Positions 2,706-38,660 of a stretch of DNA of 48,904 nucleotides are shown here, piece after piece. The position numbers were made by a program, and so were the translations under genes. How positions within the stretch are numbered: the stretch's first letter is position 1; every line of letters starts with the position of its first letter. Source of the stretch: Chloroflexota bacterium (GTDB lineage Bacteria > Chloroflexota > Dehalococcoidia > DSGV01); the NCBI GenBank assembly GCA_021787985.1, contig JAJYLG010000014.1, positions 1-48,904 on the forward strand, given 5' to 3'. The notes under the pieces were generated by a model. That model had not been told where the DNA came from. It made no database searches and saw only the letters and a program-made list of their open reading frames with translations.

Positions 2706-4583
2706 TCAGGCCCGCCTCTCGGCCGTCAACGTGCCGCGCGTGTTCCTCACCAGCTCCGCCGCCACCTCGTAGCGCCCAAACGACGGCATGACGTAGACGC
2801 CGCTGCAAGAGTCAATCATCTCCAGCGTGAAGTCGCGGGCCATCACCAGCCCCTCGGCGGCACCGCGGTCGCCCGCGCGGCGCATGCGTTCGCGGACCTC
2901 TTCGGGCACGACGATGCCCGGCACCTCGTTGTGCATGAACTCGGCGTGCCGGTAGCTCTGCAGGGGGAGAACGCCCAGCAGCACGGGCACGTGCACCGGC
3001 CCGAGCCGCTCGAAGAAGCGCCGCACCGTCGCCGGGTCGTAGACCGGTTGCGTCATCAGCAGATCCGCGCCGGCCTCAACCTTCTCCATCACCCGGCGGA
3101 GCTCGAGCTCCACGTCATCGGCGGTGGGATTGGCGGCGCAGGCGACGAAGAAGTCGGTCGGCCGGCCGATGGAGTTCCCTGCCCAGTCGGCGCCCTCGTT
3201 GAGGCGCTTCAGGATACGGATCAGCCCGATCGAGTCCACATCCCAGACGCCGCTGGCGCGCGCGTACTGCCCCAGCGTCGGTGGGTCACCGGTGAGCGCG
3301 ATCACGTTGCGGACCCCGAGCGCGTGCGCCCCGATGAGGTCGCTCTGCAGCGCCATCAGGTTCCGATCGCGGGTCGTGCAGTGGATGATGGTCTCGATCC
3401 CCGCGCGCTGCTGCACCAGCGCGGCGAAAGCGATCGCCGACATCCGCACACGCGCCATCGGGCTGTCGCCGATGTTGATCGCGTCCGCCCCGGCATCACG
3501 GCAGAGCGCAGCGCCCTCCAGCGCCTTGTTCGGGGTGATGCCGCGCGGCGGGTCGATCTCCACCGATATGACGAACCGCCCCGCGGCCAGCTTCTCGCGC
3601 AGGGTGTGAGGCTCACCCGCGAGCGGATGCGCCGGCTCGCGCGGCACCGGGGTGACGCGCGCCACCGGTATCTCCCGGCGTGCGGCCACCGGCTGGGCGG
3701 GCGTGGTGCGCCCCACGGCCTCACGGACGGCCTTCACGAACTCGGGCCGAGTGCCGCAGCACCCACCGATCACTCGCGCGCCCGACGACACCATCTCGGC
3801 GGCGACGCGGGAGAAGTAGCCGACCCCGGCGCCGTAGACCGCGCGGCCGCCCACGATCCGCGGCTGGCCGGCGTTGGGCATGGCTGATACGTAGCCCGCG
3901 CCGGCGCGGACCATCGCGCGCACAATCTCGAGCGCGGCCTGCGGCCCGACGCCGCAGTTGACGCCGGTCACGTCGGCTCCCGCGGCCGCGAGCACGCGTA
4001 CCGCCTCGGCCGGCGAGTCGCCCGCCAACGTCTGGCCATCCTCCTGGAAGTTGACCTGCGCCACCAGCGGCAGGTCGCACGCGGCGCGAGCGGTCGCCAC
4101 CGCCACGCGCAGCTCGGCTACGCTGGGAAACGTCTCGAAGACGAACAGGTCCACGCCGCCCTCGAGCAGCGCTTCCACCTGCTCGCGGAAGATGCCGGTC
4201 AGCTCGTGCTCGGCCACGTCGCCGGTCAGCAGCGGAGCCGAGCCGACCGGACCGATCGCCCCGGCGACGAACGCCGACGAGCCGCAGATCTCACGCGCGT
4301 CTCGCGCCAGCTTCGCCGCCTGGAGATTGATCTCGCGCACGCGAGCGGCCAGCCCGAACCGCGCCAGCTTCACCCGGTTGGCACCGAACGAATCGGTCTC
4401 GATCATTTCGGCGCCCGCGTTCAGGTAGTCCTCGTGCACACCGCGCACCAAGTCCGGAGCATCCAGCACCGCCTGTTCGGGGGGAAGAGCGATGGGATAG
4501 CCGCGCTCGTGCAGGAGCGTGCCCATCGCGCCGTCAGCGACGAGCGGGCCGCGTTCGAGCGCCTTCAGGAAAGGCGAATGCAC
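2706..4583 (-). CDS. Bifunctional homocysteine S-methyltransferase / 5,10-methylenetetrahydrofolate reductase
   Basis: A fusion of 625 residues. Roughly residues 1-290 are a homocysteine methyltransferase (BHMT/S-methylmethionine type): DGAMGT near the N-terminus, then the zinc ligands in VNCG and GGCCGT. From about residue 330, starting at FVISVEIDPPRG, is a MetF-type TIM barrel. It reduces methylene-THF to methyl-THF with FAD, and LTGDPP is the family's folate/flavin motif. Fused, the two halves supply methionine from one-carbon units, as in Bacillus YitJ-like proteins. The start is GTG 4583, with GGAG 8 nt upstream; the frame runs open further but only as a shadow of the EVE gene. It sits between the EVE gene and the receiver gene on the same strand. 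Confidence 0.9.
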   Translation of the reverse strand: MHSPFLKALERGPLVADGAMGTLLHERGYPIALPPEQAVLDAPDLVRGVHEDYLNAGAEMIETDSFGANRVKLARFGLAARVREINLQAAKLARDAREICGSSAFVAGAIGPVGSAPLLTGDVAEHELTGIFREQVEALLEGGVDLFVFETFPSVAELRVAVATARAACDLPLVAQVNFQEDGQTLAGDSPAEAVRVLAAAGADVTGVNCGVGPQAALEIVRAMVRAGAGYVSAMPNAGQPRIVGGRAVYGAGVGYFSRVAAEMVSSGARVIGGCCGTRPEFVKAVREAVGRTTPAQPVAARREIPVARVTPVPREPAHPLAGEPHTLREKLAAGRFVISVEIDPPRGITPNKALEGAALCRDAGADAINIGDSPMARVRMSAIAFAALVQQRAGIETIIHCTTRDRNLMALQSDLIGAHALGVRNVIALTGDPPTLGQYARASGVWDVDSIGLIRILKRLNEGADWAGNSIGRPTDFFVACAANPTADDVELELRRVMEKVEAGADLLMTQPVYDPATVRRFFERLGPVHVPVLLGVLPLQSYRHAEFMHNEVPGIVVPEEVRERMRRAGDRGAAEGLVMARDFTLEMIDSCSGVYVMPSFGRYEVAAELVRNTRGTLTAERRA

Positions 4584-6241: not shown

Positions 6242-7210
6242 TCAGCCCGTCCGCGGGTTGAGCACGTCGTTGACGGCGTCGCCCAGCAGGTTGAAGGAGA
6301 GGAAGAGCACCACAAGCACCCCAGCCGGGACGAGCAGCAGGTTGGGATGGGTGCGCAGGTTCGAGAGGCCCGCGCCATCGAACAGCAACTGGCCGAACGA
6401 CGGCGTCGGGGGCCGCACGCCTACGCCCAGCCAGGTCAGCGCGATCTCGCTGCCCGCCACCGAGGCCAGACTGGCCGAGAGCACCACCACGATCAGGTTG
6501 GAGACGTTCGGCAGCAGGTGTCGCCACACCACGTGCCCGGTGCCCGCGCCCATCGCCACTGCCGCCTGCACGTACTCCGTCTGGCGTAGCGCGAAGACCT
6601 GACTGCGGATGACGCGCGCCATCCCCACCCACGAGAAGAGTGACAGAACGCCGAACACCAGGAAATAGTCAGACGCGCCGGACTTCAGCGTGCCGCCGAT
6701 GATCGGCCAGCCGTAGAAGTGCGTCATCCAGCCGTCCCATCGCGGGCGGAGCGTCGCGCTGATCATGATCAGCATCAGCAGCCCCGGCAGCGCCAGGAAG
6801 ACGTCTCCGACCCGCATCGTGATCGTGTCCCAGCCGCCGCCCTTGTAGCCGGCGAGCAGCCCCAGCCCCACACCGAGCACCAGGCCGCCCGTCACCAGCG
6901 TCGCCACGGTCACGACCACGGTCGTGCGCGACGCCCAGATCACCCGGCTGAGCACGTCGCGGCCGAGCCGGTCCGTGCCCAGCGGGTGTCGCAGGCTCGG
7001 GCCGGCAAACGTGTGGTTCAGGTCGATCTGGTCGTACGAGTGAGGGGCGATCAGCGGCGCCAGGACCCCCACCCCGTAGAAGATCAGGATCAGGCACAGC
7101 GCGCTTGCCGCGATCCGCTTGCGCAGCAGCCGCCGGAGCGCCATCCGCCACTGCGATGCCGGTGGCCGGGACGGAGCGACCGCGTCAAGCGCCGCCTCGG
7201 CGGTGGTCAT
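6242..7210 (-). CDS. Peptide/nickel-type ABC transporter permease (DppC-like)
   Basis: An inner-membrane permease of 322 residues. It has an N-terminal cytosolic stretch, a first helix (ASALCLILIFYGVGVLAPLI), the DppC/OppC signature HPLGTDRLGRDVLSRVIW, and a bundle of further helices. The EAA loop, QAAVAMGAGTGHVVWRHLLPN, would dock on the ATPase. ATG 7210 overlaps the stop of the DppB-like gene (ATGA). The extra N-terminal residues in the same open frame are a shadow of that gene. It works with 7207-8157 and the binding protein at 8170-9834. No ATP-binding subunit is encoded in this cluster. Confidence 0.92.
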   Translation of the reverse strand: MTTAEAALDAVAPSRPPASQWRMALRRLLRKRIAASALCLILIFYGVGVLAPLIAPHSYDQIDLNHTFAGPSLRHPLGTDRLGRDVLSRVIWASRTTVVVTVATLVTGGLVLGVGLGLLAGYKGGGWDTITMRVGDVFLALPGLLMLIMISATLRPRWDGWMTHFYGWPIIGGTLKSGASDYFLVFGVLSLFSWVGMARVIRSQVFALRQTEYVQAAVAMGAGTGHVVWRHLLPNVSNLIVVVLSASLASVAGSEIALTWLGVGVRPPTPSFGQLLFDGAGLSNLRTHPNLLLVPAGVLVVLFLSFNLLGDAVNDVLNPRTG

Positions 7211-8157
7211 GCAGCCGCCGACTCTCCGAGGCGGATGCGCGGGTCGATCCATGCGTAGCTGAGGTCGACCACCACGTTCGCCACGATGTAGGCCGTCGCG
7301 ATGATCAGGGTGATCGCCATCAGCACATCGTAGTCCCGCCCCTGCACCTCCTGGAACACGAACGCCCCGATCCCCGGGATGCCGAAGAGCGTCTCGACGA
7401 AGAACGACCCCTCCAGCACCCCCACCAGCGAGAGCCCGATGACGGTCACCATTGGCAGGAGCGCGTTGCGCGACACGTGCCGCCGGAGGACCGCGCTCTC
7501 CGGTAGACCCTTCGCCCGCGCGACGCGCACGAACTCCTGCCCCAAGACCTCCAGCGTCGTGGCGCGCATGAACCGCGCGACGCCCGCGATCCCTCCGACC
7601 GAAAGCGCGATGATCGGGAGCACGGCGGCCTTGGAGAGCAACCCGCTCCAGCCGGTGGCCGGGAACCAGCCCAGCTTCAGGGCGAACAGCCACTGCAGCA
7701 GCGGGATGGCGACAACCGTCGGGACAGCGGAGAAGAGCAGGAAGGTGCCGATCGTCAAGGGGTCCTGCCAGCTCCCCCGGCGCGTTGCTGCCCAGACACC
7801 GAGCGGGATGCCGAGCCCGAAAACGACCATCAGCGCGACCACGTTGAGCTGGATGGTGATCTTCAGCCGCGGGAGGATCAATGACTTCACCGTCCGGTCG
7901 GGGAAGCGATAGCTGTCGCCGAAATCCCCCCGTAGAAACCGCCCGAGCCAACGCATGTACTGGACCGGGACCGGATCGTTCAGGCCCTGGTGCTCACGAA
8001 TGCGCTCGATCGTCTGCGGGTCGGCGCGCGGCGCACGCACCTGGATGGGGTCGCCGGGACCGTATCGCCCGAGCGCGAACGTGACGACCGAAACGGCGAA
8101 CAGTACCGGGATCGCCCACAAGAGGCGCCGCACCACATACGGGGCCAGACCTTGCAC
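7207..8157 (-). CDS. Peptide/nickel-type ABC transporter permease (DppB-like)
   Basis: A 316-residue permease with the DppB/OppB layout. A first transmembrane helix follows YVVRRLLWAIPVLFAVSVVT, then comes a periplasmic segment containing GPGDPI, then five more helices. The EAA motif is RVARAKGLPESAVLRRHVSRN, and FFVETLFGIPGIG and the C-terminal DPRIRLGE are typical of the family. It lies 12 bp behind the binding-protein gene and overlaps the DppC-like gene by 4 bp, so the three form one operon. The substrate is unknown; a di- or oligopeptide is the family default. Confidence 0.92.
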   Translation of the reverse strand: MQGLAPYVVRRLLWAIPVLFAVSVVTFALGRYGPGDPIQVRAPRADPQTIERIREHQGLNDPVPVQYMRWLGRFLRGDFGDSYRFPDRTVKSLILPRLKITIQLNVVALMVVFGLGIPLGVWAATRRGSWQDPLTIGTFLLFSAVPTVVAIPLLQWLFALKLGWFPATGWSGLLSKAAVLPIIALSVGGIAGVARFMRATTLEVLGQEFVRVARAKGLPESAVLRRHVSRNALLPMVTVIGLSLVGVLEGSFFVETLFGIPGIGAFVFQEVQGRDYDVLMAITLIIATAYIVANVVVDLSYAWIDPRIRLGESAAA

Positions 8158-9889: not shown

Positions 9890-11653
9890 CTACTCCACCA
9901 CCCGCAGGTGGAGATCCCGGAGCTGCCGCTCATCGACCGGCGCCGGCGACCCGAGCATCGGGTCGCCGCCGCTCTGCGTCTTCGGAAAGGCCACGACATC
10001 GCGGATGTTGTCGGTCCCGCGCAGCACCATCAGCAGCCGTTCGATGCCGGTGGCGATACCGCCGTGGGGCGGCGCGCCGTGTTCGAGCGCGTCCAGCAGC
10101 GCGCCGAACCGCTGCCGAGCATCATCGGGGCTGTAGCCCATCAGCCCGAAGAGCCGCTCCTGCATCTCGCGCCGGTGGTTGCGGATGCTGCCGCCGCCGA
10201 GCTCGGAGCCGTTGCATACCAGGTCGTACTGCAGCGCGCGCACCTTGCCGGGGTCGCTCTCGAGCAACGGCTCGTCCTCCGCGTAGAAACCGGAGAACGG
10301 ATTGTGGGTCGCGTCCCAGCGCCGCTCCTCCTCGCGCCACTCGAGCAGCGGGAACTCGTAGATCCAGCAGAAGGCCAGCACCTGGGAGTCGGCCAGGTCG
10401 AGGCGCTCGCCGAGCCAGACACGGAGGCCGCCGAGAGCCTTCGCCACCACTTCAGGACGGTCGGCCACCAGCAGCACCAGATCGCCGTGCTTCGCCTGGG
10501 AGTGCTCAACGATCCCGCGGACCTCGGCATCGGAGAGGAACTTGGCGACCGGCGATCGCACCCCCTCCGCGCTCACCGCCAGTGTGGCCAACCCCTTCGC
10601 TCCGCCGGACTGGGCCACGCGGGTCAGCTCGTCCACCTGGCTCCGTGAGTAGCCGGCGCAGCCCGGCGCGACGAGCGCCTTGACTCGACCACCGGCGGCC
10701 ACGGCTGACCGGAAGACGCCGAACTCGCTCTGCGCGACCACGTCGGTCACGTCACGCAGCTCCAGCCCGAAACGCAGGTCCGGCCGATCGCTCCCGTACC
10801 GCTCCATCGCTTCTTGATACGTGAGCCGCGGGAACGGGGACGCCAGCAGCCGCTTCCCCGGCGCGCACTCGCGGGCGATCGCCGTGTACAGGTCCTCGAC
10901 GAGCGCCATGACGTCCTCGCGCCGGACGAACGACATCTCGATGTCGAGCTGACTGAACTCCGGCTGCCGGTCGGCGCGCGTGTCCTCGTCGCGGAAGCAG
11001 CGGGCGATCTGAAAGTACCGCTCGAAGCCAGCGACCATCAGGAGCTGCTTGAGGATCTGGGGGCTCTGCGGCAGCGCGTAAAAGTAACCGGGCTGAAGAC
11101 GTGACGGGACGATGTAGTCGCGCGCGCCTTCCGGCGTGCTCTTGATGAGAATCGGCGTCTCCACCTCGATGAAGTCGCGCTCGCACAGGAAGTCGCGCAT
11201 GAACTTCACGATCCGGTGCCGGAGGCGGATCGTGTCGTGCAGCGAGTCACGGCGCAGGTCGAGATAGCGATAGCGCAGGCGGAGCAGCTCTTCCACCTCT
11301 TCACCCGCGTCGGTGATGTGGAACGGCGGGATCTTCGCGTCATTGAGCACCTGGGCGCGCGCAACCCGTACCTCCACCTCGCCGGTGACCAGCCTCGGGT
11401 TCACGGTCTCCGGCGGGCGCAGGGCGACCTGGCCCTCGATTTGCAGCACCCACTCGGCGCGCGCCTGGTCGGCGACGGCGTAGGCATCGCCACGGCTGGG
11501 ATCGATCACGCACTGCACGAGGCCGGTGGTGTCGCGCAGGTCGATGAAGATCAGCCCGCCGTGATCGCGGCGGCGGTGCACCCAGCCGGCCAGCGTGACC
11601 GTGCGGCCGTCGTGCTCCCGACGGAGCTCACCGCAGTTCGTATCCTTCAGCAC
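9890..11653 (-). CDS. aspS: Aspartyl-tRNA synthetase
   Basis: This class II aminoacyl-tRNA synthetase of 587 residues charges tRNA-Asp. An N-terminal OB-fold binds the anticodon (LAGWVHRRRDHGG). Class II motif 2 is CFRDEDTRADRQPEFSQLD and motif 3 is GIATGIERLLMVLRG. The segment between motifs 2 and 3 carries the GAD insertion of bacterial-type enzymes (VFRSAVAAGGRVKALVAPG). GTG 11653 gives VLKDTNCGELR, matching the usual N-terminus, with GGGAGG about 11 nt upstream. The same frame stays open far upstream, but only as antisense to hemW. It is divergent from hemW across about 60 bp. Whether the enzyme is discriminating or also charges tRNA-Asn was not determined. Confidence 0.97.
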   Translation of the reverse strand: MLKDTNCGELRREHDGRTVTLAGWVHRRRDHGGLIFIDLRDTTGLVQCVIDPSRGDAYAVADQARAEWVLQIEGQVALRPPETVNPRLVTGEVEVRVARAQVLNDAKIPPFHITDAGEEVEELLRLRYRYLDLRRDSLHDTIRLRHRIVKFMRDFLCERDFIEVETPILIKSTPEGARDYIVPSRLQPGYFYALPQSPQILKQLLMVAGFERYFQIARCFRDEDTRADRQPEFSQLDIEMSFVRREDVMALVEDLYTAIARECAPGKRLLASPFPRLTYQEAMERYGSDRPDLRFGLELRDVTDVVAQSEFGVFRSAVAAGGRVKALVAPGCAGYSRSQVDELTRVAQSGGAKGLATLAVSAEGVRSPVAKFLSDAEVRGIVEHSQAKHGDLVLLVADRPEVVAKALGGLRVWLGERLDLADSQVLAFCWIYEFPLLEWREEERRWDATHNPFSGFYAEDEPLLESDPGKVRALQYDLVCNGSELGGGSIRNHRREMQERLFGLMGYSPDDARQRFGALLDALEHGAPPHGGIATGIERLLMVLRGTDNIRDVVAFPKTQSGGDPMLGSPAPVDERQLRDLHLRVVE

Positions 11654-13217: not shown

Positions 13218-14137
13218 ATGAAGAGAACCTCGCCCTTCCACGCTCTCGCGCACTGGTGTCTGCTGCTCGTGGTGATCGCGGCGAGCTCGGTGCTCGCGGG
13301 CGGCTGCAGCATGCGGATGTCCGTGCCCAGCTTGCGGCGGCCAGCCCGACGCCCGTGCTCTGGGACCAGCCGCGGGACCCGGCCGGACGCCCCCAGGTAG
13401 GCCAGGTCGCGGAGGTTTGGCCAACCTGGCTGGCCAACACCGTGGTCCACGAGCGTCTGGCCGGGGAGGTGTACGCGGCGAGCCGCGCCGCCCCCGAAAA
13501 CGGGCAGCTCGTGACCACGGATATCTGGGCTCGGCTGGGGCCGGATGCGCGCCTGACCCTACTGCTGGAGATCAGGCGCGTGCCCGACGGCTCCCTCCTT
13601 TCGGTCATGCCGGTTACGCGGAGCGAGCGCGTGAGCTACGGCAGCACTCCGCCACTCCTGCCGTCCTATCTGCCGCCGGCGACGAGGACGCAGCTCGAGA
13701 AGGCACACCCGGGCTTCGCGAGCTGCAGGACGGGCCCAGAGCCGTACACGGACCTCGCCCAGGGCGGGCCACTCGTTCCCTTCACGACCCCAGCGCTGCT
13801 GGCGGCCGGCGGGTACCAGACGAGCGGGTCATCCTCGATGCCGCCTGCCCCGGCTGCCTCCCCGTTGTCTGGGACCGCGCCGGTTCGGATCTACCCGATG
13901 CCCCAGCGACTGGAGTTCTTCCACGAGAGCATCGCCGGCGGCTCGACCGCGATCGACGAGTGGACCGCGATCGATCCCGCCAGCGGGCGGATGGTGGCGG
14001 GCCGCGCCGTCACGCGTGAGAACGGCAAGGTCGCCTTTCTGAACGCCGCGACGTCGGGGGACGTGGAGGTCTATCCGCCCGAGGCAGTACCGGATTCGAT
14101 CTTCGACGTCACGGCCAGGCCGGTGTGCCATGCGTAG
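13218..14137 (+). pseudogene. Lipoprotein gene with an apparent frameshift
   Basis: ATG 13218 opens a clear lipoprotein signal: MKRTSPFHALAHW, a hydrophobic core (CLLLVVIAASSV) and lipobox LAGGC. This frame soon turns into nonsense and stops at 13400. From about 13310 the frame offset by one base continues as a coherent ~270-residue secreted-type protein (VLWDQPRD, EVWPTWLANTVVHERLAGEVYA, TAIDEWTAIDPASGRMV) that ends at 14137. One single-base indel between about 13310 and 13345, right after the lipobox Cys, would join them. It is either a young pseudogene or a sequencing error. The body shows no recognised domain. Confidence 0.6.
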
Positions 14138-22638: not shown

Positions 22639-24115
22639 AACGCCTGTCCCACCCGAGCTCGCGGCCGCGTTCGACGAGCACCTTGGCGTGCGCTGGTGGT
22701 GCGTCGGCGGCGCTGTGCGCGACGCCCTCCTTGGCCGACCGGCGCGCGACGTGGACCTGGTGGTAGACGGCGACCCGATCGCCGCCGCCGCCCGCCTCGC
22801 CCGGCGACTGGGCGGCACCGCCGTCACCCTCGACGCCGATCTCCCGGTGGAGCGTGTCGTGCTGGGGCGGCCCATCGCCGGCGTGCGGACCATCGATCTC
22901 CAGCCCCCGCGTGGCGACCTCGCGCACGACCTGCGTGAGCGCGACTACACCGCAAACGCCGTCGCCTGGGACCCGCGTGCCCCCGCCACGCTGATCGACC
23001 CGCTCGGCGGCACGGCCGATATCCGCGCGCGGCGCCTTCGCATGGTCTCGCCGGCGAACCTCGACGCCGACCCGTTGCGACTGCTGCGCGCGGTTCGGCT
23101 GTTCGCGGAGCGCCTCTTGCGACCCGACCCCGAGACCGCGACCGCCATCCGCGTCCGCGCCGGGATGGTGACGCGCGCCGCGCCAGAACGGCTGCAGTAC
23201 GAGCTGCGCGTCACCCTCGCCAGCCACCGCGCCGCCCGCGCCCTGCGGCTGGCCGACACCCTCGGCCTCATCGACCCTCTGCTCCCCGAGCTGGCCGAGG
23301 GCCGGGGCTTTCGCCAGCCAAAGGAGCACTACTACAACGTCCTCCAGCACCAGCTCGCGGCGGTCCAGGCGCTCGACCGCCTGCTTGCGCCACGGGCCAC
23401 CGGCGCGAAAGCTCGGCGGCTGCGGGCCGTGACCTGGCATCCAGAGCAGGGCTTGGGGCCCTGGCGACGGCGCTGGGCCGGGGCGGCCGACTCGCCCGGC
23501 GGCCGGCGCCGCGCGATCCTCAAGCTCGCCACCCTGCTCCACGACGTCGCCAAGCCACGCACGCGCGGTTGGCGGCCGGACGGCCGAATGCACTTCTTCG
23601 GCCACGCCGAGCAGGGCGGCAAGATCGCGCGCGCGGCCCTCGCCCGGTTGCGCTTCTCACGCGCGGACCAGGAGGTCGTCGCCTTGCTCGTCACGGAGCA
23701 CCTGCGACCGCTGCAACTCTCGTCCGGCGAGCTGCCGACGCGACGGGCGGTGTTCCGCTTCGTGCGCGACCTCAGCGGCCTGGAAGTCGATGCCCTGCTG
23801 TTGTCGCTCGCCGACCACGTCGCCACCGTCGGTCCGCGCCTCACGCCGGACGACCTCGTGTCGCACGTGGCCTACAGCCGCTGGCTGCTGGACACGGCCG
23901 AGGAGATCGCCGCTGGCACGGCCACCCGCAAACGGCTGCTGGACGGTGGCGTTCTCATGCAGGCGCTCGGCCTGCAGCCCGGGTCGGAGGTCGGACGCCT
24001 GCTTCGCGCCGTCGAGGAGGCCTGGGCGGCAGGCGAGATCGGCACACTGGACGAGGCGCTGACACTGGCGCGACGCTTGCATGAGCAAGGCGAGGCGAGG
24101 CGAGGTGAGCCGTGA
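22538..24115 (+). CDS. cca: CCA-adding tRNA nucleotidyltransferase / poly(A) polymerase family with HD domain
   Basis: Adds or repairs the 3' CCA of tRNAs. The nucleotidyltransferase head is VGGAVRDALLGRPARDVDLV (the DVD acidic pair is catalytic), followed by RDYTANAVAW and the RNA-binding domain around RLLRAVRLFAERL. A C-terminal HD phosphohydrolase domain contains LLHDVAKP and GHAEQGG. The start is uncertain. Frame-consistent GTGs at 22538 and 22544 lie inside the palindromic element, and the next, GTG 22688, would remove the N-terminal helix PPELAAAFDEH. The last 27 codons lie in a ~240-bp segment repeated at 25211. The stop is TGA 24113-24115, overlapping the next GTG. Confidence 0.88.
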   Translation: MGVSPRYIAHPLPGLYARKGAGGWSKQITRHPARTPVPPELAAAFDEHLGVRWWCVGGAVRDALLGRPARDVDLVVDGDPIAAAARLARRLGGTAVTLDADLPVERVVLGRPIAGVRTIDLQPPRGDLAHDLRERDYTANAVAWDPRAPATLIDPLGGTADIRARRLRMVSPANLDADPLRLLRAVRLFAERLLRPDPETATAIRVRAGMVTRAAPERLQYELRVTLASHRAARALRLADTLGLIDPLLPELAEGRGFRQPKEHYYNVLQHQLAAVQALDRLLAPRATGAKARRLRAVTWHPEQGLGPWRRRWAGAADSPGGRRRAILKLATLLHDVAKPRTRGWRPDGRMHFFGHAEQGGKIARAALARLRFSRADQEVVALLVTEHLRPLQLSSGELPTRRAVFRFVRDLSGLEVDALLLSLADHVATVGPRLTPDDLVSHVAYSRWLLDTAEEIAAGTATRKRLLDGGVLMQALGLQPGSEVGRLLRAVEEAWAAGEIGTLDEALTLARRLHEQGEARRGEP

Positions 24116-24271
24116 AGCTGAAGCTAGGTGTGATGGGTTCATCGGGCGGGGCCATCGCGCCCGAGCTGCTCGAACAGGCGTACGTCCTTGGGCGCGCGGC
24201 CGCCCAGCGCGACCTGGTGGTCATCACCGGGGCGTGCCCAGGCCTGCCCTTGGCCGCAGCCCGCGGCGCGC
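24032..24271 (+). repeat. Direct repeat, left copy (cca 3' end plus LOG 5' end)
   Basis: Nearly identical to 25211-25450 at a constant offset of 1179 bp; only a few single-base differences are seen, clustered near the right end. It covers the last ~27 codons of cca and the first ~50 codons of the LOG gene. Confidence 0.9.
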
Positions 24272-24455: not shown

Positions 24456-24899
24456 ATGGTCATGGAAGAGCGTGTAACCCGCCTCGAGGCCATCTACGAG
24501 CGGGTCGATCGTGAGCTCACCAGCATCGACCTGCGGATCGAGAACCTGCGCCAAGAGATGACGGTCGGCCATAACACGTTGTCCAGCCGCATGGACGCCC
24601 TGCGACAAGAGATGACTGTCGACCAGAATACGTTGTCCGGCCGCATGGACGCCCTGCGCCAAGAGATGACGGTCGGCCAGAACACGTTGTCCGGCCGCAT
24701 GGACGCCCTGCACCAAGAGATGACGGTCGGCCAGAACGCCCTGCGCCAGGAGATGGCGGCTGGCTTCAACACCTTGTCCAGCCGCATCGAGAAGGTATCC
24801 GACGAGCTGCACGCGCTGTCTCGCTTCATGTACGCGCAGTTCGTCGGCATCGTCCTCACCGTGCTAGCGGTGGTGCTCACCGCTATCTTCCGCCAATAG
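24456..24899 (+). CDS. Coiled-coil protein with 18-residue repeats and a C-terminal membrane anchor
   Basis: Unrecognised protein of 147 residues. After MEERVTRLEAIYERVD come four to five copies of an 18-residue unit, typified by RMDALRQEMTVGQNTLSG. They are encoded by 54-bp DNA repeats nearly identical to each other between about 24540 and 24780. The unit is strongly helical and coiled-coil-like. The last ~25 residues (FVGIVLTVLAVVLTAIF) form one transmembrane helix, so the rod would project from the membrane. AAAGGA lies 8 nt before ATG 24456. The gene is the main content of the DNA inserted between two copies of the cca-LOG junction. Confidence 0.75.
   Translation: MVMEERVTRLEAIYERVDRELTSIDLRIENLRQEMTVGHNTLSSRMDALRQEMTVDQNTLSGRMDALRQEMTVGQNTLSGRMDALHQEMTVGQNALRQEMAAGFNTLSSRIEKVSDELHALSRFMYAQFVGIVLTVLAVVLTAIFRQ
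24540..24780 (+). repeat. 54-bp tandem repeats inside the coiled-coil gene
   Basis: Unit CGCATGGACGCCCTGCGCCA plus about 34 more bases, repeated with few changes; one unit is shortened (near 24720-24745). The high DNA identity suggests recent expansion and possible copy-number variation. Confidence 0.75.
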
Positions 24900-25210
24900 C
24901 GACCGCCTTCGCGCCCAGCGACGCCGCCCACCTGTCGTGGCGGCCAGCCACCACGCCCACACGCCAGCCTGCTCCCGCAACATCGAGGCAGTTGCATACG
25001 GCTCCGGCAGCTCGTCAACGCGAGCTGGCCGGGAATCGGGCGCCCGCGATGGCGCCCGATTCCGAGGACGACCACGTGCCGCGCCCCATCTCCGACGAGT
25101 GCGGCACCATCGCCGAGCTCCCGGAGCACGTCCGCCCCTGGCAAGCGGGAGCGCCCATGCCGCCGGGCCTTGGGCGCGACCCCGAAACCCACATCAACGA
25201 GCGAACGGCG
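24900..25210. other. Inserted non-coding or degenerate segment with a hairpin
   Basis: Between the coiled-coil gene and the right direct repeat. An open frame from ATG 24992 runs into the repeated cca 3' end in the cca frame and stops at 25294 (100 residues, chimeric). No family is recognised, and it is probably not a functional gene. A perfect 13-bp hairpin (25032-25063) may end the coiled-coil transcript. Confidence 0.4.
25032..25063. terminator. 13-bp perfect hairpin
   Basis: GGAATCGGGCGCC (25032-25044), loop CGCGAT, and GGCGCCCGATTCC (25051-25063). It lies 133 bp after the coiled-coil stop and lacks a T-run, so the terminator role is tentative. Confidence 0.4.
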
Positions 25211-25450
25211 GGCGAGATCGGCACACTGGACGAGGCGCTGACACTGGCGCGACGCTTGCATGAGCAAGGCGAGGCGAGGCGAGGTGAGCCGTGAAGCTGA
25301 AGCTAGGTGTGATGGGTTCATCGGGCGGGGCCATCGCGCCCGAGCTGCTCGAGCAGGCGTACGTCCTTGGGCGCGCGGCCGCCCAGCGCGACCTGGTGGT
25401 CATCACCGGGGCGTGCCCAGGCGTGCCGCTGGCCGCAGCGCGCGGCGCCA
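25211..25450 (+). repeat. Direct repeat, right copy
   Basis: The partner of 24032-24271. Here the LOG part continues into the full gene, while the cca part is only the orphaned C-terminal codons (GEIGTLDEALTLARRLHEQG). Confidence 0.9.
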
Positions 25451-32141: not shown

Positions 32142-33794
32142 ATGGCGGACGAAGAGCCACCGCCGGACGAGTTCATGCGGCGGCGAGACGAGCGGGCGCT
32201 GACACGGCGGCGGTTGCTCGTCACCGCCGGCGCGGGCGTCGTGGCCGCGGCGTGCGGCGGCCGTGTCAGCACGCTGCCGCGCCTCGCGCCGTCTCCCAGC
32301 GTCACTGCTACCGCGACCGCCGCACCGACCGCCTCGTCGGCGGCCGCGCCCGCGGGAGTCCTGCCCGGCGAGGCACCGCGGCAGGTCATCCCCTCGCTCG
32401 TCAGTCCCGCCATGGAGCGCGAGAATCGCGAGCACGGGGAAGTGTGGCGGTTGCGCGCCCCCGCTCGCTTTGGCGAGGTGTCCGCGTATTGCTCGGAGAC
32501 CACCTACCGCCCCGGTGACCGGCTACGGCTGTACGCCTCGGTGCGGCCAGGCGAGGGCAACCTGAAGATCGCGGTCTTCCGGCTCGGCTGGTACGCCGGC
32601 GCCGGCGGACGGCTGATGACCACGGCCGCCGTCCCCGGGCCGCGTCAGGGCCACTGGACCCCGCGCACCGGGATGGTCGACGTCCAGCGCGTGGTCAGCC
32701 AGCCGAAGTTCGGCTGCGTGGAGCTGCAGTGGGAGCCGGCGTGGGAGCTCGACATCCCCACCTCGTGGCCCACCGGCGTTTACCTGGTCAGGCTGACGAC
32801 GACTATCGGCCGGCAGAGCTACGCGCCGTTCGTCATCGACGACGGCAAGCCTCACGCGCTGCTGATGGTCCTGCCCTGGACCACGTACGTGGCCTACAAC
32901 CCTTGGGGCGGCAAGAGCCTGTACGAGTACAACAGCTCGCCCGCGCGCACCGTCGCCGGCACGCCGCGGGCCGTGCGCGTCTCCCTCGACCGGCCGTTCG
33001 AGTACGACTTCGGCACGGGCTTTCTGCTGCGCTACGAGATCAGCACCATCCGCTGGCTCGAGTCGCAAGGCTTCGATGTCGGCTATCTGACGAGCTGCGA
33101 CCTGGACGCCGCCAACGACCTGCACCGACGCGCTCGCGCCCTGCTCTTCCATGGCCACGACGAGTATTGGTCGGCGGGGATGCGCAGCGCGGTCGAGGGC
33201 GCGCGCGACGGCGGCACGGGCCTCTGCTTCCTCAGCGGCAACACCATGTACTGGCAGATCCGTTGCGACGAATCGAGCCAGGGCCGAGCACGCCGAGCGC
33301 TGGTCTGTTACAAGGACGCGCGCATCGACCCCGCCGCGCGCATCGCGCCCCCGATGACCACGGTCCGCTGGATCGACCCGCCCGTCTCAGACCCCCAGTC
33401 GCTCGTCACCGGGCTGACGTACGGCGGGAGCATCCAGCCACCGGCCCAGGACTGGGTGATCGACGACCCGGGCCACTGGGTCTTCGCGGGACTCGGCGTG
33501 CGCAAGGGCGAGCGGGTCCCGGGCGTCGTCGGCTACGAGTTCGACACGGCTGCACCCGCGTCAGCCACCCCCCAGGGCCTGCAGATGGTCGCCCGCAGCC
33601 CCGTCCGCGGGGCGGACGGCCCTGTCCCATACCAGGCGACCACCGTCTACCGGGCGGCGAGCGGCGCATGGGTCTTCAACGCCGGCACGATCCAGTGGTG
33701 CTGGGGGCTCGACAACGCGTACCAGCGCTTCGCCGATCAGCGCATCCAGCGCGCGACGCTCAACGTCCTGAAGCGCATGACGGAGTCTCGATAG
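32142..33794 (+). CDS. Tat-exported lipoprotein with N,N-dimethylformamidase-like domain
   Basis: A 550-residue exported protein. The N-terminus has a twin-arginine-type run (LTRRRLLVTAGAGVVAAAC) ending in a lipobox-like AAAC at about residue 38, then a Ser/Thr/Ala/Pro linker. The body, from RENREHGEVWRL, resembles the large subunit of N,N-dimethylformamidase: LGWYAGAGGRLM, LPWTTYVAYNPWGGKSLYEYNS, LLFHGHDEYWSAGMR, LSGNTMYWQIR. Catalytic ability is unproven, as most homologues are annotated by domain only. ATG 32142 has GGTAGGGGG upstream. Its last 48 bp recur at 36096-36143. Confidence 0.75.
   Translation: MADEEPPPDEFMRRRDERALTRRRLLVTAGAGVVAAACGGRVSTLPRLAPSPSVTATATAAPTASSAAAPAGVLPGEAPRQVIPSLVSPAMERENREHGEVWRLRAPARFGEVSAYCSETTYRPGDRLRLYASVRPGEGNLKIAVFRLGWYAGAGGRLMTTAAVPGPRQGHWTPRTGMVDVQRVVSQPKFGCVELQWEPAWELDIPTSWPTGVYLVRLTTTIGRQSYAPFVIDDGKPHALLMVLPWTTYVAYNPWGGKSLYEYNSSPARTVAGTPRAVRVSLDRPFEYDFGTGFLLRYEISTIRWLESQGFDVGYLTSCDLDAANDLHRRARALLFHGHDEYWSAGMRSAVEGARDGGTGLCFLSGNTMYWQIRCDESSQGRARRALVCYKDARIDPAARIAPPMTTVRWIDPPVSDPQSLVTGLTYGGSIQPPAQDWVIDDPGHWVFAGLGVRKGERVPGVVGYEFDTAAPASATPQGLQMVARSPVRGADGPVPYQATTVYRAASGAWVFNAGTIQWCWGLDNAYQRFADQRIQRATLNVLKRMTESR
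33738..33785. repeat. 48-bp direct repeat, copy 1 (3' end of the dimethylformamidase-like gene)
   Basis: Identical over 48 bases to 36096-36143. It encodes QRIQRATLNVLKRMTE here. Confidence 0.9.
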
Positions 33795-33948
33795 CCGAGA
33801 GATCGCCCGGCAACGTGATGCGCGTCGCGCGTGGCAGGGGCCAGCGACACCTGTGCGGCGCAGCGGCGGCAGCCCACGCGGGACACACCGGCCGAGCGAG
33901 AGCCCCGTCGGCCCACCAGAACGAGGACTTCGATGGCTCTTGCCGCGG

Positions 33949-33987
33949 CGGGCGCAGAGGATTGACATGCTCTTCTCTCTGCGCCCG
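33949..33987. terminator. Hairpin between two convergent genes
   Basis: Perfect 11-bp stem (CGGGCGCAGAG with CTCTGCGCCCG) and a 17-nt loop, 25 bp from the stop of the BNR protein gene and 155 bp from the stop of the + strand gene. Confidence 0.6.
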
Positions 33988-34011
33988 CTGCCTATCCACG
34001 CCTCGCCGAGT

Positions 34012-35802
34012 TCAATCGCCGCCGGGCGCCGGGACCGTGCTGGTAAAGATGTCCGAGTCCTGTTTGCCCGGCGTCACACCCGTCCAGACCGGATGGCTGT
34101 AGCCGCCGGAGTCGATCGCCAGGCCGTTGTAGTCGCCGATAAACCGGCCTGTTCCGAAGAAGGCGTCGTCGAAGTTGGACGCGAAGCCGGACGCGGCCGT
34201 CGCCGTCCAGTGCTTGCCGCCGTCGGCCGACTGCGCCAGGGTAGTCCACGCCAGCTTGTTCTTCGAATCCTTGCTGCGATCGTAGAAGACGACGTCCACG
34301 CGCCCCTTGGCGCCCGCGGCGACCCACGGGAACCACTGGTCGTTTTTCGCCTGGGCCGCCTCGGGCGTGATCTCCTTCCACGACTTGCCGCCGTCGGTCG
34401 ACGCGAGCAGGTAGACGTCGGTGTTGGTGCTCTTGCCGGCGGGGCAGGCGTAGCCCGAGGCGCGATTGCCGACGTAGGTTGGGTACGGGAACTGCCCGGC
34501 CTGGGACCTGTCGTCCGAGTACGTGACGTAGAGGTTGCCGGCCGCGTCGACGGCAAGGTTGCCGGCCGAGTTGACGCGGAAGTTGCTGTTGCATAGCGTT
34601 TGCCGGCCGTCCTGGTTGATGGGGTAGTCGTTGATGCCGTCGTACAGGTCGGCGACATGGTACGGACCGCCGACGACGACGCCGTTCGGGCCAACGACCG
34701 TCATCAGGTACTGGTCGCGGTAGCCCTGGTTGAAGCCGGCGCCCTGGTCGTTCTCGAAGGCGACGGCGACGTTACCGTTGGCCAGCACCACCGGGACGGA
34801 GAACTGGTTCTCGACGCAGTGGCCGGCATTGCCCGGCGCACTCTCGTTCGGGCACCAGGTCATCGAGTCGCCGCTCACCTGGACGGGCGTGCTGAAGGTC
34901 GTGCCGTTGTCGTCCGACCAAGCCATCATGATCGGCGACCGCAGGTAGTTGCCCAGGCGGTCGAACAGGAACTTCGTCCACGTCACGTAGACACGACCGT
35001 CGTGCGGCCCGCCGCTGTTGTCGACGGCGATGTACTCCTTGTCGTGGAACACGGTGCAGTCGGAGGCCAGGCCCTGGTAGGCGACGAAGCCGACGCCGCC
35101 GGGCACGACGGTGGGCACGAACGTCCGGTTCCAATCGTGGCCGTCGTCGAGCGAGCGTGCCACCTGAACTCCGTTCTCGCAGTTCTGCGCGCTGAACGCC
35201 AGCGAGCCGTAGTAGACGACGGGCGTGCCAGGTTTGATGCCGGGTGTGCCCGGGCGCGCCCGGCCGTACGCCACGGCGGGGTCGCCCGTGCCCACCGGCG
35301 GCTCGACAACGCCGTCGGTCGTCACCAGCAGGGGGAACGGTGGGAAGTAGGTGACGCCGCTGCTGGTGTACGCGCCGCCGCCGATGGGGACGCCGATGCC
35401 GTAGTCGTTCGCGCCGATGACCCAGGTGCCGCTGGCGCCACTGGTCCCGGGCCGGATGGCGATGGACGTCTCGTCCTGCGGCCGCAGGTTGTAGTCGGCG
35501 TTGGCCTGCCTGACCGCGACGCCGACCTCCGCCTGGTTCTTCTCGTACTTGGCCTCATCCTCCTCGAGCTGGCGCGCGTGCTCAGCGCCGGGCACATCGT
35601 TGCGACGGGCGAAGCCGGAGAAGAGGGCTGCCTCCGACAGGGGCAGCCCCTTGTGGTCGCCCTTGGGCGGCCCGAGGCTCGCGGCGGTGGGCGATGCTCC
35701 CGTACCGCGCCGCGCCGACGTGCCGAGCGCCCCCAGCACGACCAGCGCGGCGGTCAGAAGTAGGCCGAGCAGCACGGGCCTCCCACGGAAACGAGCGCTC
35801 AT
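34012..35802 (-). CDS. Secreted BNR-repeat (sialidase-fold) beta-propeller protein
   Basis: A 596-residue exported protein. The signal peptide is VLLGLLLTAALVVLGALG near the N-terminus. Asp-box (BNR) repeats S-x-D-x-G-x-x-W are visible several times: SLDDGHDW, SDDNGTTF, STDGGKSW and SADGGKHW, the hallmark of six-bladed sialidase-type propellers. The arginine triad of true sialidases could not be identified, so an enzymatic role is not claimed. A short helical segment (QLEEDEAKYEKNQAEV) precedes the propeller. ATG 35802 has AGGAGGAAGGAG upstream and a consensus promoter further up. It ends against the hairpin at 33949-33987. Confidence 0.8.
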   Translation of the reverse strand: MSARFRGRPVLLGLLLTAALVVLGALGTSARRGTGASPTAASLGPPKGDHKGLPLSEAALFSGFARRNDVPGAEHARQLEEDEAKYEKNQAEVGVAVRQANADYNLRPQDETSIAIRPGTSGASGTWVIGANDYGIGVPIGGGAYTSSGVTYFPPFPLLVTTDGVVEPPVGTGDPAVAYGRARPGTPGIKPGTPVVYYGSLAFSAQNCENGVQVARSLDDGHDWNRTFVPTVVPGGVGFVAYQGLASDCTVFHDKEYIAVDNSGGPHDGRVYVTWTKFLFDRLGNYLRSPIMMAWSDDNGTTFSTPVQVSGDSMTWCPNESAPGNAGHCVENQFSVPVVLANGNVAVAFENDQGAGFNQGYRDQYLMTVVGPNGVVVGGPYHVADLYDGINDYPINQDGRQTLCNSNFRVNSAGNLAVDAAGNLYVTYSDDRSQAGQFPYPTYVGNRASGYACPAGKSTNTDVYLLASTDGGKSWKEITPEAAQAKNDQWFPWVAAGAKGRVDVVFYDRSKDSKNKLAWTTLAQSADGGKHWTATAASGFASNFDDAFFGTGRFIGDYNGLAIDSGGYSHPVWTGVTPGKQDSDIFTSTVPAPGGD

Positions 35803-35837
35803 GGCGGTTCTCCTTCCTCCTGGTCAAATCTGGGCAA

Positions 35838-35867
35838 ACTTTAGTGCGCCCCGCCGCGCCGTGTCAA
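35838..35867 (-). promoter_or_regulatory. Sigma-70-type promoter of the BNR-repeat gene
   Basis: On the minus strand, TTGACA (35862-35867), an 18-nt spacer, then TAAAGT (35838-35843), 35 nt before the start codon. This is the best -35/-10 match in the window. Confidence 0.7.
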
Positions 35868-35978
35868 CTGTTACCTTCCCCGGGGACGACACAACGTACC
35901 GTGTTCTTTTATGTCATGAGCATCTTTGCGGCGAGAATCCGACCAGCTCCCGTCGAGGGGAAGCCCAGCGCCCCCACG

Positions 35979-36027
35979 GCCTGCCTGCCGGCAGGCAGGC
36001 GTCTGCGGCCTCCGGCAAGCGGAGGCC
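35979..36027 (-). terminator. Two adjacent palindromes after the SGNH gene
   Basis: A perfect 22-nt palindrome made of GCCTGCCTGCC and its complement (35979-36000), and GGCCTCCG/CGGAGGCC with loop GCAAG (36007-36027). They lie 90-140 bp past the stop on the minus strand. Related CTGCC/GGCAG palindromes occur at 47834 and 48743. Confidence 0.45.
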
Positions 36028-36095
36028 GGCGCTCGCGGGCAAGGAAGAATACCGCCAGTCCACCCTACGATGCTGGCGTGCCTGGAGGCCAAGCT

Positions 36096-36143
36096 CAGCG
36101 CATCCAGCGCGCGACGCTCAACGTCCTGAAGCGCATGACGGAG
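36096..36143. repeat. 48-bp direct repeat, copy 2 (scar)
   Basis: A perfect copy of 33738-33785 without the rest of that gene. Bases 36118-36143 double as the antisense coding end (PSCASGR and stop) of the SGNH gene. Confidence 0.9.
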
Positions 36144-37212
36144 CAGCGTCGCCCGAGCGCAGCGCGTCCAGCGCCACCCGCACCACGTCCGGCGTGAAGA
36201 CAGCCGCGCCCTTGTCGTTCAGGTGCGATGGGTCGAGCCAGTCGTCGTGCGGGTAATTGACGTTATGGTAGTCGGCGAACGGCACGCACTCGCGCTGCGC
36301 GATCTGCCGAACCTCGTCCACGTAGGCGGTGTACGGTACGCCCGGCGGCATCGCCTGCTGGATCTGCCGGTGAGCCGGGAAGGCGATCGTCACCACCGGG
36401 ATGCCGCGTTCCTTCAGCGTGCGCAGCGAGCTGCTGAACGCGCGCGCCTGCTCGCCACCGAGCACGAAGGGCGACAGCAGGCCCGTGCGATAGCCCTGAA
36501 CCGTGTCCTGCCACCAGCTCGCCGGCATCGTCAGGTTGTTGTTCTCGCGGAACTCGTGCCGGTCGCAGCGCTCGGCGTCCGGCCGCCGGATCAGGCCGCG
36601 CAGGACGCACTCACCCGCGCGCAGCAGCGGCATCCGGTAACCGTACGCCGGCAGGAGCTTGTTCGCCAGGAAGTCCGTGCGGAAGTTGAGCGATGTCTCG
36701 TAGCGGAACAGGTGGCTCAGGTCCACGACCGAGGTGGTGGACGTGTAATAGTGCATGAACGTATTGATCGCGTTGTTGAACTCGAATTCGCTCGTGGCAT
36801 AGATCACCAGCTTCGGCCGAGCCTTGGCGCTGCTGATGATGTCCACGACACGGTGCAGGGCGACGGCATCGGGCGCATCCACGCCGAAGTTGAAGACGGT
36901 CGGCCGGTGGCCGAACGCGGGCGCGAGCTCATCGGCGACCATCCCGGCGTCCACGTCGCGGATCATGCGGCTGCTGCCGACCAGCACCACCTCCGGTGGC
37001 GCGGGTAGCGCCCGGTAGGCGTGCAGCCGAGCCAGTACCGACTCGGCGCTCCCGTAGCGAAGCTGAGCCATCGGCCCAAGCAGCGAGGCGACCTCTTGCA
37101 GCAGCAGGAAGCACAGCACGCCCGCCAGCACCTGCAGGATCAGCCGCCGCCGCCGGTGTGGCCGGACGACCGCCGGCCCAGGGCCGGCCCGCGGCGCTGT
37201 ATCGACCGCCAT
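36118..37212 (-). CDS. SGNH-hydrolase-like protein, partner of an MBOAT acyltransferase (AlgX/DltD-like role)
   Basis: A 364-residue protein with one N-terminal transmembrane helix (LILQVLAGVLCFLLLQEV) and an extracytoplasmic domain. VLVGSSRMIRDVD carries the GDSL-like nucleophile Ser, and DPSHLNDKGA near the C-terminus carries the D-x-x-H pair, the pattern of SGNH proteins that pass acyl groups to surface polymers. ATG 37212 overlaps the stop of the MBOAT gene (ATGA). The last seven residues and the stop are read from the reverse strand of a 48-bp repeat, so the original C-terminus was probably replaced. Confidence 0.75.
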   Translation of the reverse strand: MAVDTAPRAGPGPAVVRPHRRRRLILQVLAGVLCFLLLQEVASLLGPMAQLRYGSAESVLARLHAYRALPAPPEVVLVGSSRMIRDVDAGMVADELAPAFGHRPTVFNFGVDAPDAVALHRVVDIISSAKARPKLVIYATSEFEFNNAINTFMHYYTSTTSVVDLSHLFRYETSLNFRTDFLANKLLPAYGYRMPLLRAGECVLRGLIRRPDAERCDRHEFRENNNLTMPASWWQDTVQGYRTGLLSPFVLGGEQARAFSSSLRTLKERGIPVVTIAFPAHRQIQQAMPPGVPYTAYVDEVRQIAQRECVPFADYHNVNYPHDDWLDPSHLNDKGAAVFTPDVVRVALDALRSGDAAPSCASGR

Positions 37213-38660
37213 CAGAACTGGAAGTAGAGGAAGCGCTGCGCCGCGCCTCCCCCGAGCAGCAGGACGATGGAGGCCAGCGCGGCCCAGGCGATCGGCCGCG
37301 CCCACTCACGCAACGGGGAGAGCGTCTGCGCCAACGGGTGCGCGTGCACGCTGCGCAGCCATGTGACGGCGAGCTCCACCGCGAACGTTCCGGCCGTTAC
37401 GCCGATCACGCCGCGGCGCATCCCGGCCGAGAGCTCGAAGCCGCCCGCGGACGGCGTGCCCGGCAGCAGGTGCCGGTAGATGGTCAGAGCGCCGCCCAGG
37501 TCGGCGGCGCGGAACAGCACCCACCCCAGCGCCACGGTGAGGAAGGTCGCCAGGACCCCGGTCACGGCCAAGACACGCAGCACCAGCGGCGAGCGTAACG
37601 CGCGCCCCAGCGGCTTGACGACCGGGCGCCAAGAACGCAGCCCGGCGAGGCCGCCGCCGTGGTACGCGCCCCAGACGGCGAAGTGCCACGCCGCGCCGTG
37701 CCACAGGCCGCCGAGCACCATCGTGATGAACATATTGAGCTGCGTGCGGAACCCACCCTGCCGATTGCCGCCCAGCGGGATGTAGAGATAGTCGCGCAAC
37801 CAGTTGGAGAGGGTGATGTGCCAGCGGCGCCAGAACTCCTGCAGGTTCGGCGCGAGGTACGGCATGCGGAAGTTCTCCGGCACGCGGAACCCGAGCATCT
37901 GCGCGCTGCCGCGGCCGATATCCGTGTAGCCGGAGAAGTCGAAGTAGAGCTGGAAGGTGAAGGCAAGCATCCCAGCCCAGGCGTCCACCGCGCTCAACCC
38001 AGAGGCGTGCGAGAAGGCGAGGTCCGCCGTGCCGGACAAGTGGTCGGCGATCGCGACCTTCTTGAAGAGCCCGAGGATGACCAGCTCGAGCCCGTCACGG
38101 AAGAGCGTCATGTTGAACCGCGGTCGCGCGTAGACCTGGGCGGTGAAGTCCTGGTAGCGCTTGATCGGCCCGGCGATCTGCGTCGGGAAGAAGGCCGGGA
38201 AAAGGGCAAAGACCAGCGGGTTCTTCACCGGCGGATGGCCACGGTAGACGTCCACGACGTAGTGGATGAACTCGAAGGTGAAGAAGCTAATGCCGAGCGG
38301 CAGGATGATGTTCAGCAGGCGGTCCTGCTGCACCGAACCAAATGGCGCGAAGATCTCGTAAAGCGTGGACAGCGCGAGGTTTGCGTACTTGAACACCCCG
38401 AGAGTCGCCAGGTTCCCGGCGACCGTCAACGCCAGCCACCAGCGACGTCCGGTTCGCACGCGGGCGAGCCACAGCCCGGCGAAGTAGTTCCACACGGTCA
38501 TCAGCAAGATCAGGAGCAGGTACTGTCGCCGCCAGTACGCGTAGAAGATGTAGGACGCGAACAGCAGGAACGCCGGTCGGAGCCGCGCAGGGACGACGAG
38601 CCAGTAGACGAGCAGGACGCTGGGCAGGAAGACCAGGTAGGCCCCGCTGTTGAAGAGCAC
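37212..38660 (-). CDS. MBOAT-family membrane O-acyltransferase (AlgI/DltB-like)
   Basis: A polytopic protein of 482 residues. It carries the MBOAT motifs PLGISFFTFEFIHYVVDVYRG, FPTQIAGPIKRYQDF, FQLYFDFSGYTDIGRGSA, RRWHITLSNWLRDYLYIPLGGNR and GGLWHGAAWHF (catalytic His). MBOAT proteins of this branch move acyl chains, usually acetyl, across the membrane to exopolysaccharide or teichoic acid. Together with the overlapping SGNH gene it would O-acylate a surface glycan. The polymer is unknown, as no glycan synthesis genes are in the window. It is divergent from the NuoI-like gene over 206 bp. Confidence 0.92.
   Translation of the reverse strand: MLFNSGAYLVFLPSVLLVYWLVVPARLRPAFLLFASYIFYAYWRRQYLLLILLMTVWNYFAGLWLARVRTGRRWWLALTVAGNLATLGVFKYANLALSTLYEIFAPFGSVQQDRLLNIILPLGISFFTFEFIHYVVDVYRGHPPVKNPLVFALFPAFFPTQIAGPIKRYQDFTAQVYARPRFNMTLFRDGLELVILGLFKKVAIADHLSGTADLAFSHASGLSAVDAWAGMLAFTFQLYFDFSGYTDIGRGSAQMLGFRVPENFRMPYLAPNLQEFWRRWHITLSNWLRDYLYIPLGGNRQGGFRTQLNMFITMVLGGLWHGAAWHFAVWGAYHGGGLAGLRSWRPVVKPLGRALRSPLVLRVLAVTGVLATFLTVALGWVLFRAADLGGALTIYRHLLPGTPSAGGFELSAGMRRGVIGVTAGTFAVELAVTWLRSVHAHPLAQTLSPLREWARPIAWAALASIVLLLGGGAAQRFLYFQF

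Follow-up and report, generated by a model that had tools for sequence, protein, structure and literature searches.

In the window (the whole 48,904-nt stretch of Chloroflexota DNA analysed here), a 2,309-bp segment carrying a single beta-propeller gene lies between two identical copies of a 49-bp sequence, called N below. We favour, at about even confidence, the reading that this segment was inserted between two convergent genes, encoding a DMFA2_C protein and an SGNH-like protein, and that 49 bp of the target were duplicated in the process. Insertion is supported by the exactness and isolation of N, by the native character of its first copy, by the compactness of the segment with its single gene and by four comparable arrangements in the same genome, and judged from its anatomy the locus is probably a case of insertion with long target duplication. 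An earlier note on this DNA had already offered the idea that the propeller gene was inserted between two copies; it is kept as the best reading, with the same anatomy recurring four times in the sampled genome, and the insertion event itself is what we infer from that anatomy. The locus contains the following features:

32142-33794, plus strand: gene of the DMFA2_C protein (N,N-dimethylformamidase beta-subunit-like), 550 aa, PF20254 (E 5.8e-105)
33737-33785, plus strand: first copy of N, encoding QRIQRATLNVLKRMTE, a conserved C-terminal stretch of the DMFA2_C protein
33786-36094, no strand: proposed insert of 2,309 bp, one gene with flanks of about 226 bp and 292 bp
34012-35802, minus strand: BNR-like beta-propeller gene, 596 aa, PF13088 (E 2.6e-07, 30.7 bits against a gathering score of 31.4, thus just under it)
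36095-36143, plus strand: second copy of N, identical DNA, whose antisense strand gives the last 7 SGNH codons and the stop
36118-37305, minus strand: gene of the SGNH-like protein, 395 aa (DUF1574), PF07611 (E 1.1e-08), with its 3' end inside the second copy of N
36144-36197, plus strand: continuation of the DMFA2_C frame as it would read without the insert, 17 codons and then TGA at 36195-36197 (open frame to 36197; flanks joined in a script), with an 80-bp overlap with the SGNH gene
37212-38660, minus strand: MBOAT acyltransferase gene beside the SGNH gene, PF03062 (E 3.3e-28)

The two copies of N (33737-33785 and 36095-36143) match at 49 of 49 positions. The repeat had been described before as perfect over 48 bp, which was right as to its exactness and one base short as to its length. 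In 40 simulated windows (dinucleotide Markov) the longest exact direct repeat measured 15-20 bp (median 17), which rules out a repeat of 49 bp by chance. Outside the two copies, the 60 bp on either side show no relationship (25% and 40% identity). The source genome, a draft in 189 contigs totalling 3.5 Mb, has a completeness of 95.56% and an estimated contamination of 3.88%; a search of it with the 151 bp around N (E <= 0.001) found N in these two places only, with no third match. The left part of the segment (33786-34011) had no match elsewhere in this genome and the right part gave only short palindrome matches; N as a multi-copy repeat or a mobile element was rejected for want of a third match of N and of any match of the left part. 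Terminal inverted repeats were not found at the ends of 33786-36094. A perfect 22-bp palindrome, GCCTGCCTGCCGGCAGGCAGGC, was observed at 35979-36000, and the same or similar palindromes occur in contigs C92, C120 and C11. Elsewhere in the window, a 243-bp repeat with 98% identity (24027-24269 and 25206-25448, 1,179 bp apart; exact stretches of 142 and 69 bp) precedes a 54-bp tandem repeat (24534-24790).

The DMFA2_C protein matches PF20254 with 352.2 bits, above the curated cut-off of 27. The first copy of N had been taken for the 3' end of this gene, which holds for the region near the end and not for the very end: beyond N the gene continues for 9 unrepeated bp (TCT CGA TAG) to a stop at 33792-33794, and its last two codons end in T and A, which is unusual in a gene with a GC3 of 0.905. 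Read in the DMFA2_C frame, N has a codon index of 0.943 and a GC3 of 1.0, whereas the seven codons that it contributes to the SGNH frame have a non-native look (index 0.212, GC3 0.286). Immediately beyond N the SGNH frame returns to normal codon use (20 codons, GC3 0.9, index 0.742), and the DMFA2_C frame beyond the edge of the second copy is poor (17 codons, GC3 0.529, index 0.358). Homologues of the DMFA2_C protein were read by eye at 31 loci; about 10 of the 31 end no more than roughly ten residues from the QRIQRATLNVLKRMTE stretch, 7 have a longer tail, 13 run on or off the locus and 1 diverges earlier. Since the homologues share this stretch and the two frames differ in codon index and GC3, N is native to the DMFA2_C gene, with the SGNH gene merely reading into it; as judged from codon use and conservation, the first copy is native DMFA2_C sequence.

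That the SGNH protein takes its tail PSCASGR and its stop from the second copy, as first noticed in the earlier note, was confirmed, with the TGA at 36118-36120. Counted by hand, 29 residues separate the HLN motif from the edge of N, with seven more inside N, and homologues end 25-32 residues past HLN (seven readable tails at 22-29% identity, repeated or unreadable rows omitted). A PSCASGR ending without the repeat, which would speak against the proposed origin of the tail, was sought and found in none of these seven tails, all from distant homologues (22-29% identity). An MBOAT gene adjoins the SGNH gene at six of ten SGNH loci, some of which overlap.

In the proposed course of events, the ancestor would have carried the order DMFA2_C gene, N, SGNH gene, the 3' ends of the two convergent frames sharing about 80 bp. 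The target would have been cut by two nicks, or by a staggered break, at a spacing of 49 bp; a piece of DNA would have been captured, and filling of both single-stranded ends would then have doubled N. Because N was doubled, both neighbouring genes would have stayed intact: the DMFA2_C gene would have kept its conserved end and would now stop after two codons of the insert, 17 possible codons being replaced by SR and a stop, and the end of the SGNH gene would be unchanged. Convergent overlaps of at least 60 bp were found in 4 of 95 convergent pairs in the sampled source genome by a crude gene call, so that the ancestral overlap would be uncommon but not outlandish. Classical bacterial end joining is unsupported, as no Ku gene was found: a search with PF02735 gave 0 matches in the source genome, and the control search matched one of 14 genomes, that of Bacillus subtilis. 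Ku-dependent end joining was consequently rejected as the maker of the insertion, within the limits of a draft that is 95.56% complete.

To place the locus among others of its genome, 1,239,831 bases of the source genome (58 pieces) were scanned for exact direct repeats of at least 24 bp, lying 250-20,000 bp apart, present in two copies only and with unrelated flanks. Eight rows were returned, from which three were dropped by eye: one at C22 (35 bp), in which two neighbouring HAD-like frames share a motif, and two CRISPR-like rows at L101. Two different CRISPR-like arrays were seen by eye in this genome, at L101 (about 6828-7750) and at L069 (about 75-470). The five rows kept, all isolated exact repeats, are the window and the following four:

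L076: copies of 111 bp enclose 1,274 bp with an HNH-like frame and lie upstream of a gene that resembles leuS by eye
L097: copies of 74 bp enclose 1,752 bp, in which a DUF6941 frame overlaps one of no assigned family; an open frame has its 3' end in the repeat
L099: copies of 88 bp enclose 866 bp, in which an NYN frame lies; the repeat is the start region of an adjoining CAP-domain gene
L120: copies of 40 bp enclose 1,798 bp, in which DUF433 and DUF5615 frames lie; an open frame again has its 3' end in the repeat

The HNH-like frame lies below the Pfam cut-off and has a weak IscB-like match, and at L099 the gene on the far side looks by eye related to the CAP-domain gene. In the seven frames measured inside these four segments the codon index is 0.39-0.59, compared with 0.66-0.80 in nine neighbouring genes, two of which also belong to the reference set. 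The propeller gene is unlike these four cargoes in having a native composition (GC3 0.918, index 0.747). Excision of the segment from L097, L099 and L120 leaves close and ordinary gene neighbours (frames read by eye). The repeat lengths at the five sites of this one genome are 40, 49, 74, 88 and 111 bp, and the copies at L120 have diverged, the repeat extending there to 68 bp with 95.6% identity and three mismatches.

The same scan of control DNA gave 0 cases in 1,139,710 bases after one overlap of contig ends had been dropped. These controls comprised 400,000 bases of G059, a one-contig genome of the same class (0 cases), 289,710 bases of G055, a draft genome of the same class (no internal case), and 400,000 bases of pSymB and 50,000 bases of E. 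coli K-12 (0 cases each). The row dropped from G055 was a 141-bp overlap between the two ends of a 3,293-bp contig; this contig, L180, which shares 141 bp at both ends, is probably circular. The probability that all five cases fall in the source genome's share of the bases was calculated by hand as 0.521^5 = 0.04, or about 0.07 without the window; the excess over the controls is a hint only, because the rule was made after the data had been seen.

A looser self-comparison, which allowed mismatches, gave 29 rows in the source genome, 3 in G059, 4 in G055, 3 in pSymB and 0 in K-12. Many of the rows of the source genome look like related genes, and besides those already kept five were inspected, L065 among them. 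At L089, a 348-bp repeat of 94.5% identity (3107-3453 and 6685-7032) surrounds 3.2 kb of lower-GC DNA, whose frames have no assigned family, and may represent another and older insertion of this kind. In contig C60, a stray 71-bp fragment of a methyltransferase-like frame (92731-92801 and 95168-95238, 94.4% identity, by eye) lies 2.4 kb from the copy whose frame continues on both sides. L161 has a 51-bp repeat with 92% identity (11603-11653 and 13968-14018, 2.3 kb apart) with a GC-rich, hairpin-like stretch (by eye), and the row at L092 comes from two frames that contain similar stretches. Of the four rows of G055, three were inspected; these fall within a single frame or in frames related to each other.

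The distribution of the three genes was compared among relatives. The propeller protein is patchy, with matches in 5 of 60 genomes of a relatives sample (source genome counted) and in 75 of 400 genomes of a phylum sample (partial matches and source genome counted). DMFA2_C matches were obtained in 3 of the 60 and in 121 of the 400 genomes, many of them partial or weak. Among 393 genomes of the class the SGNH protein was found in the source genome only (0 of 392 others), and in the phylum sample in 8 of 400, the seven besides the source genome being weak matches. In view of this patchy occurrence, all three genes look accessory in this class. A second dimethylformamidase-like gene beside an MBOAT-SGNH pair, which had been suggested as something to look for, was absent from the 31 DMFA2_C loci, taken from more than 100 matches listed; likewise, no SGNH, MBOAT or propeller gene lay near DMFA2_C at any of these 31 loci, with flanks of mostly up to 1.5 kb on each side. 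Three of the seven other phylum genomes with an SGNH match (G421, G429 and G474) also have DMFA2_C, either on a different contig or at least about 92 kb away. Together with the 31 loci, this separation ruled out a conserved DMFA2_C-SGNH pair. No genome of the relatives sample (n=60) is nearer than the same class, and a genome-contig search gave one distant locus; none of these being a close relative, the locus was not observed in its state before the proposed insertion.

Two features of the locus fit insertion less comfortably. The right edge of N coincides almost exactly with the switch from DMFA2_C-like to SGNH-like codons and with the point at which the SGNH protein reaches the length of its family, a match that insertion leaves to coincidence. 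Under insertion it would also take luck for the DMFA2_C frame to meet a stop no more than three codons past the junction. The case is further weakened by the native composition of the propeller gene and by the position of four of the five cases on short pieces of DNA. A doubtful but serious alternative is that the order DMFA2_C, propeller, SGNH is old and that the 49 bp from the end of the DMFA2_C gene were copied as a templated filler onto a broken or deleted 3' end of the SGNH gene. The SGNH gene would then have lost its own stop and gained a seven-codon tail from antisense DMFA2_C DNA 2.3 kb away, a consequence that we regard as no less doubtful. Such copying explains the shared edge of N and the SGNH coding part, where SGNH-like codon use and family length both finish, and the native propeller gene better than insertion does; the DMFA2_C protein is also of usual length at its end for the family, and the fragment in contig C60 is a comparable stray copy in the same genome. 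It explains less well than insertion the nearness of the stop and the foreign frames within the other repeats: a piece copied from a random source is unlikely to end 9 bp before the DMFA2_C stop, the final codons TCT CGA look non-native, and the four other repeats around compact foreign segments are not accounted for. The idea of the earlier note that a gene end has been remade holds under both explanations, the gene being DMFA2_C if the segment was inserted and SGNH if the end was copied.

An artefact of assembly, or a mixture of strains, in the 189-contig draft is improbable. Besides the draft state and the contamination estimate, it is favoured by the finding of four of the five cases in pieces shorter than 19 kb, which hold 331,849 of the 1,239,831 bases (27%; threshold chosen afterwards), and by one repeat copy that begins 19 bases from a contig end. 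A fixed word length of the assembler is no explanation, since the repeats differ in length; the copies at L120 have mutated apart, and the bases sampled from the draft genome G055 hold no internal case. The bias towards short pieces does not decide the matter, because sites that vary in the population would break an assembly too. A tandem duplication of about 2.36 kb (the DMFA2_C end and the propeller gene), after which a deletion reaching to the SGNH end removed the second propeller and spared N, is very improbable: the duplication followed by loss that the earlier note had proposed beside insertion would yield the identical final order, but it requires two events, the second of which would have to finish just short of the copied DMFA2_C stop, and a remnant of a second propeller is absent from the repeat scan of the window. 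Integrase islands insert at the 3' ends of genes, with direct repeats of the gene end flanking the insert and the gene restored. We give hardly any credence to such an island with N as its attachment core, since, although the repeats in the window, L097 and L120 lie at gene 3' ends and the target gene is restored, no integrase or transposase was found among eight Pfam-scanned frames of the five segments, the targets and repeat lengths differ from site to site, and the five N sequences and the five segments are mutually dissimilar (best terminal inverted match 0.46). An integrase element or an insertion sequence was rejected on the same eight frames and on the lack of common ends.

Insertion with target duplication, the reading that we prefer, has known counterparts. 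Insertion with long target duplication was reportedly first described by Nobusato, Uchiyama, Ohashi and Kobayashi (Gene, 2000). In the accounts cited here it was derived from two Helicobacter pylori strains and frequently involved restriction-modification genes (PMC1643837, PMC3031569, PMC4978471, PMC3154945). As in those accounts, a gene-sized segment lies here in long direct repeats of target DNA of variable length, without a short duplication of the transposon kind. In contrast to them, where insertions were deduced by comparing two strains, a single genome is considered here and the insert is deduced from its anatomy. The cargo also differs from the restriction-modification genes of those accounts, being a propeller gene in the window and HNH-like, NYN, DUF6941 and DUF433/DUF5615 frames elsewhere; matches to a defence library in the five segments were weak and restricted to the HNH and NYN frames. 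Traits shared with this class of insertion are the long direct repeats (49 bp around 2,309 bp), a variable repeat length and the lack of insertion sequence or transposon ends. In the account available for Arabidopsis, transposed non-transposon genes are flanked by direct repeats of more than 30 bp, mostly host sequence, and in 13 of 18 cases the repeat is present at the orthologous target site; the likeness lies in moved genes flanked by direct repeats without a transposon, the difference in that the organism is a plant and that its cases are chiefly explained by excision of circles and re-integration by homology (PMC2869330). A partial search of the literature gave no report of such insertions from this kind of organism, and a 2010 follow-up on H. 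pylori may cover other bacteria. Bacteria also have homology-facilitated or short-patch illegitimate recombination, by which short stretches could be copied or joined with no transposon involved; it is not known to leave a whole gene between copies of a duplicated target.

Movement of genes with long target duplication and without a transposon is rare and already described. In our judgement, the entry of single genes into bacterial genomes without transposon, integrase or flanking homology is poorly explained. Speculatively, and at low confidence, the five sites may belong to a lineage in which single accessory genes are actively inserted at gene boundaries without transposase or integrase, and with no Ku found in the draft. 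It is a similarly tentative and rather unlikely proposal that one and the same route brought in genes of 0.9-2.3 kb, some of them nuclease-like, with target duplications of 40-111 bp and with survival of both neighbours, even overlapping ones. With the target duplicated, neighbouring genes that are tightly packed or that overlap could both survive the arrival of DNA between them. If, instead, the end of the SGNH gene was copied from the DMFA2_C gene, the locus would show on a small scale how the antisense strand of one gene can supply the tail of another protein. This genome carries several such scars, of which some are exact and one or more have diverged, and it offers sites at which the idea may be tested.
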